Assembly: GCA_025699025.1 (NCBI GenBank)
Contig: JAILWJ010000002.1
Span: 62,001 to 126,000, forward strand
Direction: 5' to 3'
DNA: 64,000 bases
Source: Nitrosarchaeum sp.
Lineage (GTDB): Archaea > Thermoproteota > Nitrososphaeria > Nitrososphaerales > Nitrosopumilaceae
Part shown: piece by piece, positions 31,125 to 39,910 of the stretch
Position numbering within the stretch: position 1 is the stretch's first letter
Layout: each line of letters begins with the position of its first letter
Position numbers and translations under genes: made by a program
Notes under the pieces: model-generated
The model's input: the letters and a program-made list of their open reading frames with translations, nothing else
Databases searched by the model: none
Told to the model about the DNA's origin: nothing

Positions 31125-31979
31125 TTAATACATTTCCTTGTATTTCGTTCTTAGTTCCTCATGAGGACCAACAATTGAAAAAGCCTTCACAACATCGGTT
31201 TTACTCACAATTCCAATCAGATTTTTTTTTGAGTCTATCACAGGTATTCCACTAATTTTGTTTTTTATCATCAAACTAGCGCCTGCTGCCAAATCTTCCT
31301 CCTCGCCAATCGTAATGAGTTTATCCTCAAGTAAATCTTCTACTGTGATTTTTTTACTACCATCTATTGGAAGCAAATAATCTCTGGAACGAGTTTTCCC
31401 TTTGGTAAAGTAATCACTATGAGAAAGAAGTGTGTTCGTCGTGATTAACCCTACTGGAGAGCCATTCTCATCAGTAACTACAAGTCTTGAAACCTCATTT
31501 TTATTCATTAAATCTAGAGCAAATTTCACAGAATCAGTTTTTCTACATGTTACTACTTTCCTGCTCATGAAGTTCTTAATGGAATATTTTCCGCCAAAAA
31601 CATTTGCATATGCTTTAACCAAATCAGTTCTAGATATGATTCCAATTAACTCTCCTTTATCATCTACAAGAACTACTGAGCCAATTTTAAACGTCTCCAT
31701 TCTTACGGCACATTGATCAAAATGATCCTCAAATCCATCAGTAATTGTAATAACGTTCTTTTGCATAACATGTTTTATTGGAATCTCATCTACTGCTCTT
31801 GCAGTTTTATCATCACCCAAAAATCTATTGATATCTCTTTCAGTAACAATTCCGACAGGTTTGTTTTTTACAGCAACAACGATTCGTTTTATAAAATTTT
31901 TTTGCATCTGTGATAGTGTTTCAAAAATAGATGATTCTGGTTGAACTTTAATTACTGGAGACGAATATTTTTTAATCAT
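31125..31979 (-). CDS. Protein with four CBS domains
   Basis: A 284-residue protein made of two Bateman pairs (about residues 1-130 and 135-284). Each CBS unit shows the usual ending, for example VGIVTERDINRF, IGIISRTDLVKAY, VGLITTNTLLSH and IGIVSKTDVVKAF. CBS pairs bind adenosine nucleotides or SAM. No catalytic domain is attached. It may be a stand-alone nucleotide sensor. The APC permease gene lies 24 bp downstream on the same strand, so it may belong to the same transcript and regulate transport. Confidence 0.9.
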   Translation of the reverse strand: MIKKYSSPVIKVQPESSIFETLSQMQKNFIKRIVVAVKNKPVGIVTERDINRFLGDDKTARAVDEIPIKHVMQKNVITITDGFEDHFDQCAVRMETFKIGSVVLVDDKGELIGIISRTDLVKAYANVFGGKYSIKNFMSRKVVTCRKTDSVKFALDLMNKNEVSRLVVTDENGSPVGLITTNTLLSHSDYFTKGKTRSRDYLLPIDGSKKITVEDLLEDKLITIGEEEDLAAGASLMIKNKISGIPVIDSKKNLIGIVSKTDVVKAFSIVGPHEELRTKYKEMY

Positions 31980-32439: not shown

Positions 32440-32519
32440 TGCAATGCACTTAACTTACACACAAGATAGGTTAGAAATATTCTATGAGATTTAAATTGGA
32501 CAAAATTCTAGTCTGCCTA

Positions 32520-32954
32520 ATGATGTTTACAAATATTTTAGTACCATTTGATTTATCAAATCAATCAATCCATGCATTCAAAACTGCACTGAATTTAGCC
32601 AAAAAATACAACTCCAAAATTACGATATTAACATGTCTTGAAGGCGATGCTTGGCATCACAAGTTTTATGATTCAAGAGCTGATGATGAATTAATTAAAA
32701 AACAAAAAAAAGTTGCTCTTTCTCATATAACTAAGTTAGAAATTCTAGCCAAAAAAGAAAACATATCTATCAAATCACAGATAATAAAATCTGCCTCGGT
32801 TGTTAAAGACATTGTATCTTTTTCAAAATCAAGAAAGATCGATCTTATCGTAATGGGTTCTCATGGAAGAACTGGAATAGATAAACTAATCCTTGGTAGT
32901 ATTGCAAATGGTGTTACTCAAAAATCTAGTTGCCCAGTGTTAATAGTTAAATGA
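32520..32954 (+). CDS. Universal stress protein (UspA family)
   Basis: About 144 residues of UspA fold. The N-terminal strand NILVPFDLSNQSIHAFKTAL and the ATP-binding motif GSHGRTGIDKLILGSIANGV (about residues 112-131) are typical, and SCPVLIVK closes the fold. An upstream in-frame ATG at 32484 adds a short unconserved extension; ATG 32520 or 32523 fits the family. The MDH-like gene follows 12 bp later, so the two are probably co-transcribed. Confidence 0.92.
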   Translation: MMFTNILVPFDLSNQSIHAFKTALNLAKKYNSKITILTCLEGDAWHHKFYDSRADDELIKKQKKVALSHITKLEILAKKENISIKSQIIKSASVVKDIVSFSKSRKIDLIVMGSHGRTGIDKLILGSIANGVTQKSSCPVLIVK

Positions 32955-34716: not shown

Positions 34717-35139
34717 ATGGCAAAATTTAAAAAAATTCTTGTTCCTCTAGATGGCTCTACTAATGCCAACCGTGGTTTAGATAGAGCTATTGAAATTGCA
34801 AAAGAAAGTGGTGCTGAAATCACCGGATTTTATGTGTTTCATTTGCCATTTACTGCAGGAATAAAATATACACAGAAAATGAAAGATGATGCACAAAATA
34901 AAGCTGCAAAAGCAATTGGACCTGCAATGAAACGTGCTCAGAAATTGGGTGCGACATTCAAATACAAAACTGGAGGCGGTCATACTGGATCAGAAGTTGT
35001 CAAATTTGCTGAAAAAGGAAAGTATGACATGATTGTAATTGGTGCTAGAGGAATTGGTGGCACTAGAGAAGCATTTCTTGGAAGCACATCTAATTATGTA
35101 ATGCACAAATCAAAAATTCCTGTTTTAGTAGTAAAGTAG
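34717..35139 (+). CDS. Universal stress protein (UspA family)
   Basis: A 140-residue UspA protein. It has the N-terminal strand KKILVPLDGSTNANRGLDRAI, and the nucleotide motif GARGIGGTREAFLGSTSNYV at about residues 107-126, close to the ATP-binding G-x2-G-x9-G-S/T consensus. A Gly-rich loop KTGGGHTGSEVV lies mid-protein. It shares the fold but little sequence with the Usp at 32520. It has its own TATA box. Confidence 0.93.
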   Translation: MAKFKKILVPLDGSTNANRGLDRAIEIAKESGAEITGFYVFHLPFTAGIKYTQKMKDDAQNKAAKAIGPAMKRAQKLGATFKYKTGGGHTGSEVVKFAEKGKYDMIVIGARGIGGTREAFLGSTSNYVMHKSKIPVLVVK

Positions 35140-37835: not shown

Positions 37836-39587
37836 ATGGCAATTTCGTTTAGTCTAGATAAAAAACTCATTCTTCTTGTAATGATTGTATCAGTGATTGC
37901 TCTGTCCGTTACTGCATATCTTAGTTTTACATATGCCGATGAAATTCTAAAAGAAAGACAAGGAGAGCAATTATTTGGTGAATCTAGAGTCAGGGGCGAT
38001 ACACTCAGACTTCTTTTTGAATCTCGTATTGAACAAAATAAAATTCTGGCAAATGATCCTATGATTAGAATACTCACTGCTGAATTAAATCAAGTTTCAG
38101 AGACTGATTTTGAAAAAATTAGGGAGGAAAAACGTCGAATTTTTCTCACTCAAGTTCAAGCATTTCAGGAATTAATTGGTTTTTCAATTGGATTTGAAGA
38201 TGTCAAAATTATAGGTTCTAACGGGAAAATCTTATTTACTCTTGGAAGAATAACAAACTCTGATTTCTTAAATGATCCATTATTTAAAAAAGGAATGACA
38301 CAGTCTTTTGTTGATTTTGAACCTTCACCATCTGGAAAAAAGATGATTGTTGTTTCACCTATTTTCTCTGAAGATAGTAAAAAAGGTGATGATCCAATAG
38401 GAGTAATTATTTCTAGAATGAGAACTGTAGCGATAGACAATATACTTCTTAATAGAAGTGGTCTCGGTGAAACCGGCGAGGTTTACATTGTAAATGATGG
38501 GTTCTTAATGCTATCCGAATCCAGATTCATTGATAATGTAATATTTACACAAAAAGTTGACACTATTCCAGTTCAAAAATGTTTTAGAGAAGGCAAAGAA
38601 CACATTGGATTTTATCCTGATTATAGGGGAACTAAAATTTATGGTTCTTCATACTGTGCAAATGACTTGGGATTTGTGTTGTTGGCTGAAATTGATGAGG
38701 CAGAAACAGTAAAACCTATTTTAATTCTTCAAGATAAATTATTCCAAACAGGCCTTTTAATTACCACCGGAATGGCTATCATAGCATTTGCACTTTCAAA
38801 AACCCTTTCCAGACCATTAATCAAACTTAAAAATGCAGCAAACAAAATTGCAAGCGGGAATTTTGATGTTAGAACAAACATCAATACTACTGATGAAATT
38901 GGAGAATTATCATTTGCATTTGATTCAATGGCCCAGAAGCTGCAAGATTCTCTCATTGAAATTAAACAAAAAGAAGATGTAATCAAGACCCAAGAAGACA
39001 TTCTTTTGCAATTCTCAGATTACAGCGAAAATTATTGTGTATGTATGGTAGATATCATAAATTCCACCAAAATTACTTCAAATCTATCAGAAACACAAAC
39101 CAGTGAATTCTATAAAATATTCCTTAATTCAATTGCTATAATTGTAAGAAAATTTGACGGAATTGTAGTCAAAAATATTGGGGATGCATTATTATTCTAT
39201 TTCCCAGTAATTCATTCTGAACAAGACTCCACTTTGAAAAAATGCCTTGATTGCTGTGTTACGATTGGAGAATCACATGATGATATTTCATCTCAACTAA
39301 AACAACAAAAACTCCCTATGTTTGACTATAGAATCAGTGCAACTTATGGTATTGTAAGGATTGCTAAAACTTCTACATCATCTGTCAATGATATTTTTGG
39401 AACCACTGTAAACCGATGTGCAAAAATCAATCGTGAAGCTCCACCTAACGGCTTTGTCATCGGTCAAGATTTCTATAATAATGCCAAACTTTTCGATGAC
39501 TTTGTTTTTGAAAAAATTAAAACCAGTACATCTATTGAACACGGATATGAGAGCTTTATAGTAACACGCAAAAAACCCAAGAACTAG
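37836..39587 (+). CDS. Membrane sensor with Cache-like, HAMP and class III nucleotide cyclase domains
   Basis: A 583-residue signalling protein. Transmembrane helix 1 lies at about residues 10-30 and an extracellular Cache-like sensor at about 35-300. Helix 2 is at about 305-325 (GLLITTGMAIIAFALSKTL), the HAMP domain at 327-380 (SRPLIKLKNAANKIASGNFD) and the cyclase at about 400-575. Metal Asp residues are in CMVDIINS and KNIGDALL. Adenine-specifying Lys (KNIGD) and Asp (NDIFG) suggest cAMP. The transition-state Arg of N-x3-R is Lys (VNRCAKI). It overlaps the convergent PII gene by 4 bp. Confidence 0.9.
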   Translation: MAISFSLDKKLILLVMIVSVIALSVTAYLSFTYADEILKERQGEQLFGESRVRGDTLRLLFESRIEQNKILANDPMIRILTAELNQVSETDFEKIREEKRRIFLTQVQAFQELIGFSIGFEDVKIIGSNGKILFTLGRITNSDFLNDPLFKKGMTQSFVDFEPSPSGKKMIVVSPIFSEDSKKGDDPIGVIISRMRTVAIDNILLNRSGLGETGEVYIVNDGFLMLSESRFIDNVIFTQKVDTIPVQKCFREGKEHIGFYPDYRGTKIYGSSYCANDLGFVLLAEIDEAETVKPILILQDKLFQTGLLITTGMAIIAFALSKTLSRPLIKLKNAANKIASGNFDVRTNINTTDEIGELSFAFDSMAQKLQDSLIEIKQKEDVIKTQEDILLQFSDYSENYCVCMVDIINSTKITSNLSETQTSEFYKIFLNSIAIIVRKFDGIVVKNIGDALLFYFPVIHSEQDSTLKKCLDCCVTIGESHDDISSQLKQQKLPMFDYRISATYGIVRIAKTSTSSVNDIFGTTVNRCAKINREAPPNGFVIGQDFYNNAKLFDDFVFEKIKTSTSIEHGYESFIVTRKKPKN

Positions 39588-39910
39588 ATTAGTTCCGTTG
39601 ATTTTACTTTAGTCGAAATATCGTAAGATTCTTCTACATTGGACACAAATATTTTACCATCACCTTTTTCTCCTGTGTGTGCCGTTTCTATTATTGCTGA
39701 TACTACTTTTTGTACCATGGAATCATGAACTACAGTAACTATGACATCTGTTGAATTAAATTCAATTTTATGACCTCCTATCTCTGGCCTCTCTCCTGCA
39801 CCCTGCCCTAAGGATTGGATCAAAGTTACTCCTCCAACTCCTGCGTTAGAAATTGCATTTACAACTTTTTTAGACATTTCACTTTGAACAATAGCCTCAA
39901 TCCGCTTCAT
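39584..39910 (-). CDS. Non-canonical PII signalling protein
   Basis: A 108-residue PII fold. The N-terminal KRIEAIVQSEMSKKVVNAI and the nucleotide-binding B-loop TGEKGDGKIFVS are well kept. The T-loop (GQGAGERPEIGGHKIEFNS) is short, lacks the uridylylated Tyr and the usual KG-x-TE-x-YRG sequence. The C-loop arginines are replaced (YDISTKVKS). It therefore probably binds an adenine nucleotide but signals to a different partner than GlnB/GlnK. No ammonium transporter is adjacent. It converges with a nucleotide cyclase, sharing 4 bp. Confidence 0.88.
   Translation of the reverse strand: MKRIEAIVQSEMSKKVVNAISNAGVGGVTLIQSLGQGAGERPEIGGHKIEFNSTDVIVTVVHDSMVQKVVSAIIETAHTGEKGDGKIFVSNVEESYDISTKVKSTELI

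Follow-up and report, generated by a model that had tools for sequence, protein, structure and literature searches.

A predicted adenylate cyclase and its convergent PII neighbour in Nitrosopumilaceae, and the question of what reads cAMP

Does a PII protein read the cyclic AMP (cAMP) made by the cyclase encoded beside it? The question arises from a stretch of 64,000 nucleotides (the window) that forms part of contig C2 in the 1.7 Mb genome of Nitrosarchaeum sp., an ammonia-oxidising archaeon of the Nitrosopumilaceae. Here, the gene for a membrane Cache-HAMP-class III cyclase of 583 amino acids (37836..39587, plus strand) ends tail to tail with that for a PII protein of 108 amino acids (39584..39910, minus strand), the first recognized by its open reading frame, domains, residues and fold, and the second by its open reading frame, P-II domain, fold and position in the tree. 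An initial annotation had described this arrangement accurately: both reading frames are in place and have in common the four base pairs CTAG (39584..39587, assigned to no strand), in which TAG is read as the stop on each strand. It had also proposed that the two form a cAMP-producing and cAMP-sensing pair. Both genes are real and probably active. We give about an even chance to a less intimate relationship, in which they are signalling genes expressed separately and belonging to an old block passed on by vertical descent, one for an adenylate cyclase and the other for a PII that senses adenylates and is blind to 2-oxoglutarate, the PII being no obligatory dedicated partner or receptor of the cyclase. 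This reading is built on domains, active-site and pocket residues, synteny and gene losses, from which we infer the activities, the ligands and a target.

Domains and catalytic residues of the cyclase

The cyclase has the sensor-HAMP-cyclase order, a common layout among class III adenylate cyclases. Its HAMP domain (amino acids 320-371, 38793..38948, plus strand) scores 57.1 bits and its catalytic domain (amino acids 397-548, 39024..39479, plus strand) matches Guanylate_cyc with 26.1 bits against a cut-off of 21.9. The extracytoplasmic sensor domain (amino acids 60-282, 38013..38681, plus strand) is dCache_1-like, with 42.3 bits, slightly below the curated cut-off of 45, and its fold is mixed in the predicted model. 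Profile matches identify P. aeruginosa CyaB (3.2e-15), Spirulina CyaC and the cyanobacterial Cya2 structures as the nearest solved relatives, and the predicted model fits adenylate cyclase folds (Foldseek TM 0.7-0.8 by target length).

With CyaB, CyaC and Cya2 the archaeal protein shares the fold, the two metal-binding aspartates, Asp406 (39051..39053) and Asp450 (39183..39185), the adenine-type pair of Lys446 (39171..39173) and Asp519 (39390..39392), and the ribose-binding Asn526 (39411..39413), all on the plus strand and each present in 64/64 aligned relatives. It differs from them at the position of the transition-state arginine, occupied by Lys530 (39423..39425, plus strand), so that the transition-state pair of Asn and Arg is incomplete. 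The initial annotation had noticed this substitution, which turns out to be invariant: all 64 relatives have lysine here, among them both further cyclases that the genome encodes. Of the bacterial class III domains used as a yardstick, 27 in number, 26 carry arginine at this position and one carries lysine. Because the fold and the remaining residues fit, we class the protein as a class III variant despite the missing arginine; and because the lysine is invariant across the lineage while the other residues are conserved, we regard it as a lineage trait, a working residue rather than a sign of decay.

In class III cyclases the Lys/Asp pair that reads the base predicts ATP as the substrate. Going by its residues, the enzyme should be of the adenylate type and make cAMP from ATP. 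The Cache domain would sense an external ligand and the HAMP domain would relay the signal to the cytoplasmic class III domains, which would dimerise and convert ATP to cAMP with Lys530 acting for the transition-state arginine. Across 300 genomes sampled from the whole class, full-length orthologues were found only within the Nitrosopumilaceae; in the other families of that sample, matches cover only about amino acids 3-379 and lie within frames of 748-837 amino acids.

Pocket and loops of the PII protein

The PII consists of one P-II domain (PF00543, 68.9 bits against a cut-off of 25) with a canonical predicted fold (pLDDT 82; Foldseek probability 1.00 to PII/GlnK), and its best fold matches are canonical PII/GlnK proteins with about 33-38% identity. 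It resembles these proteins (3n5b, A. fulgidus GlnK and M. jannaschii GlnK1) in fold, in the TGxxGDGK motif, in Thr29 and in the C-terminal isoleucine, and it differs from them in a shorter T-loop without Tyr51 and in the replacement of both R101/R103 and R9/Q39/K58. When aligned to Anabaena PII, it retains the equivalents of T29, G87, D88, G89 and K90, and its B-loop, TGEKGDGK (amino acids 79-86, 39653..39676, minus strand), is a canonical nucleotide-phosphate loop. The C-terminal isoleucine is present here and in most members of its clade; in M. jannaschii GlnK1, this residue helps to hold the adenine and Lys90, and like T29/G87/D88/G89/K90 it is described as part of the nucleotide pocket, R9/Q39/K58 being the ligands of 2-oxoglutarate (PMC8395244). 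In the window PII Lys58 is replaced, and Arg9 and Gln39 are not retained either, so that the whole 2-oxoglutarate set is gone. The T-loop (about amino acids 33-53, 39752..39814, minus strand, SLGQGAGERPEIGGHKIEFNS in the alignment) is some four residues shorter than that of Anabaena PII, with a gap at position 51. The 2-oxoglutarate ligands are typical of GlnB/GlnK and not of every PII, and Tyr51, the site of uridylylation, is typical of many bacterial PIIs without defining the family.

With the nucleotide pocket kept and the 2-oxoglutarate ligands lost, the protein should, as far as its residues tell, be a sensor of adenine nucleotides that does not see 2-oxoglutarate. It would read these nucleotides through the canonical B-loop and the C-terminal isoleucine and, its 2-oxoglutarate site having disappeared, would report the adenylate state instead of the nitrogen state to a target.

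Both loop changes mentioned in the initial annotation are real, but that of the C-loop is general to the family and not specific to this gene. In the alignment D97-I-S99 (39614..39622, minus strand) replaces R101-x-R103, with Asp for Arg101 and Ser for Arg103 of Anabaena PII. Of the eight PII-domain proteins that the genome encodes, five show the same change and a sixth has an Asn variant of it, and R101/R103 are lost in most PIIs of the Nitrosopumilaceae whatever their neighbours. Being this common, and including PIIs unlinked to a cyclase, the altered C-loop is no signature of cAMP binding and we reject it as such. The comparison with SbtB, the cyanobacterial PII-like binder of cAMP, AMP and c-di-AMP, is not supported either. 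The two proteins have the PII fold in common and possibly a sensing of adenine nucleotides that is independent of 2-oxoglutarate, but the window PII has a canonical B-loop, no Cys R-loop and no known transporter partner. It resembles canonical PII/GlnK, and SbtB appears neither among its sequence matches in the PDB (E<=0.01) nor among its top 50 fold matches. Separately, the genome encodes two PII-like proteins of 101 amino acids (L003, C3:224542-224820; L004, C2:259708-259986) without a B-loop, with GIRGQG in the T-loop region and an EKFS ending, which are distinct from its GlnK and its other PIIs.

Linkage, loss and inheritance of the pair

The window PII belongs to a clade with a shortened T-loop that is specific to Nitrosopumilaceae (family f1; 151 genomes), supported by an SH-aLRT of 93 and found in 29 of the 151 genomes; G012, a basal genome, has a sister of it. 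Virus-borne copies were considered and discarded: 21 matches on viral contigs, with 31-45% identity, include no member of this clade. Among the matches listed, from which the counts of full-length cyclases (about 70 genomes) and of adjacent PIIs (27) were taken, the gene is convergent with the cyclase in about 27 of the 29 genomes, and about 40 of the 70 genomes with the cyclase have no adjacent PII. As the pairing recurs in five genera, it goes beyond chance. The overlap itself is variable, since the gap ranges from -9 to +40 bp among relatives, the orientation being convergent in all but G012, and we dismiss it as a functional feature. Operon logic is likewise rejected, as convergent genes cannot be co-transcribed.

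The pair is embedded in a syntenic block that spans more than 12 genes, among them those for a DnaJ-domain protein, cupredoxins, a ferredoxin, a universal stress protein (Usp) and others, which argues that most of the adjacency was inherited and not kept independently. Each gene also persists alone. According to the cyclase tree, the PII was lost and the cyclase kept several times, in the main g11 clade, in G103 and in four g14 genomes where the cyclase has been relocated; the adjacent cyclase was lost and the PII kept in G051/L150; and in G145 the PII is located elsewhere. A mirror-tree comparison gave no co-evolution signal exceeding that of block neighbours: after control, the distance correlation was 0.25 for PII and cyclase, against 0.37 for PII and the radical SAM gene (rSAM) and 0.25 for PII and ferredoxin.

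Three further observations were made along this locus. In the metagenome-assembled genome of a Nitrosopumilus (L149:520-693), a cyclase remnant of 57 amino acids lies by an open PII frame, the cyclase having decayed and the PII having been retained. In several g11 genomes (L072, L079, L081, L082), the cyclase without its PII is one or two genes from an ammonium transporter and a GlnK-type PII. In G012 (CSP1-1; L087/L152), two different PIIs stand side by side, with the cyclase split into two frames nearby and a gene with a CBS domain lying between cyclase and PII.

Some of the data speak against a link by inheritance alone. In G148/L148 the two genes are together in new surroundings, next to an ammonium transporter (Amt); in G012, the clade's PII is 0.6-0.8 kb from the broken cyclase and in another orientation; and a Cache-HAMP cyclase is present somewhere in each sampled genome that has a linked-clade PII. 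Linkage across several contexts and this constant co-presence hint at a functional tie. Cyclase and PII are tied by ancestry, and perhaps by a common process too. As for the cAMP-PII pair first proposed, the adenylate-type cyclase, the nucleotide pocket, the recurrent adjacency and the absence of a classical receptor in the family (see below) still speak for it, whereas the C-loop mark, the likeness to SbtB and the dedicated pairing find no support, given the block synteny and the persistence of each gene alone. The evidence for it is weaker than first appeared.

Candidate readers of cAMP

Class III cyclases are encoded in 144 of the 151 Nitrosopumilaceae genomes (95 of the 96 good ones), and the cyclic-nucleotide-binding domain of CRP-type receptors (CNB, PF00027) is absent from the window genome and from all 151. 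The profile is valid in this class of archaea, as it matches in 71 of 400 class-wide genomes, which belong to other families (f2, f3, f4, f10, f12, f18 and f22) and never to f1. No GAF domain was found in the window genome. With cyclases near-universal and CNB missing, the receptor of cAMP, if cAMP is made, must be non-classical. The candidate adenine-nucleotide binders of the genome are its eight PIIs, its 16 Usps and its CBS proteins.

It is conceivable, although unlikely, that the PII is that receptor, with cAMP from the neighbouring cyclase replacing ATP/ADP in the cleft between subunits and resetting the short T-loop. The missing CNB, a domain that sister families do have, leaves room for such a role; the pocket is retained without the phosphate-contacting R101/R103; the linked clade is strongly tied to the cyclase; and SbtB provides a precedent for cAMP on a PII fold (PMC10117731). 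However, PIIs unlinked to any cyclase have lost the same arginines, the canonical B-loop favours ordinary binding of ATP/ADP, no similarity to SbtB is seen in the sequence, and a majority of cyclase genomes among the matches listed do without an adjacent PII. The broader claim that the linked clade is the cAMP receptor of the Nitrosopumilaceae, having replaced the CRP/CNB proteins of sister families, and would be the first archaeal PII to read cAMP, is doubtful to the same degree. A literature search found no earlier report of a PII-cyclase pair in these archaea.

The PII could instead regulate the cyclase as a protein: bound to ATP or ADP, it would dock on the HAMP or cyclase domain and tune cAMP to the energy state. 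PIIs usually act through membrane or enzyme partners, and Azospirillum GlnZ binds two enzymes, one a diguanylate cyclase and the other a phosphodiesterase of c-di-GMP (PMC7646526). Both cases join a PII to a cyclic-nucleotide enzyme; the second messenger is a different one, and the interaction here is a hypothesis only. That no sampled genome has the linked-clade PII without a Cache-HAMP cyclase agrees with such regulation. Cyclases that persist without the PII, with identical catalytic residues either way, and a co-evolution that is not in excess argue against it, and we hold it to be improbable, on a par with the receptor role.

A somewhat fainter prospect is that the cAMP is read not by the PII but by a neighbouring Usp or CBS protein. 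The Usp at 34717..35139 (plus strand), identified as part of the conserved block by neighbourhood comparison, is a rival binder of adenine nucleotides, possibly of cAMP, and stays in the block also where the cyclase is present and the PII absent. In the same region a protein with four CBS domains, of an adenine-nucleotide-binding family, is encoded at 31125..31979 (minus strand), and in G012 it is a CBS gene that separates PII and cyclase. The genome has 16 Usps, and for one such protein, from mycobacteria, binding of cAMP is known at about 3 uM, more tightly than that of ATP (PMC11107214). Like the Usps of the window block, this protein (Rv1636/MSMEG_3811) is not of the CNB type, but it is reported to be confined to actinobacterial genera. 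A second Usp lies at 32484-32954, so that two Usps and the four-CBS protein are found less than 7 kb upstream of the cyclase; many PIIs from other subfamilies, too, have Usp or CBS genes as neighbours, in what looks like a cluster of adenine-nucleotide sensors.

Finally, it is very unlikely that the cyclase is silent or makes another product, as the lysine at the transition-state position, the weak Pfam score and PADLOC matches to Pycsar cyclases might suggest, since the other catalytic residues, including the ATP-specific K/D pair, are invariant in the 64 relatives, the same lysine occurs in its two paralogues and in a bacterial cyclase, and the PADLOC matches reflect ordinary class III homology in a genome without the PF00027 effector of a Pycsar defence system, which we therefore reject.

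We thus favour the reading of two signalling genes inherited in one block and expressed separately. The absence of CNB from the whole family beside conserved cyclases makes the receptor of cAMP in these archaea a question that can be tested, and near-universal class III cyclases without their standard receptors reduce it to a short list of genes. The Cache-HAMP cyclases themselves are a group that has kept all the active-site residues examined but for one invariant change from arginine to lysine. Should the PII prove to read cAMP, nitrogen and energy sensing would be joined to cAMP in archaea.
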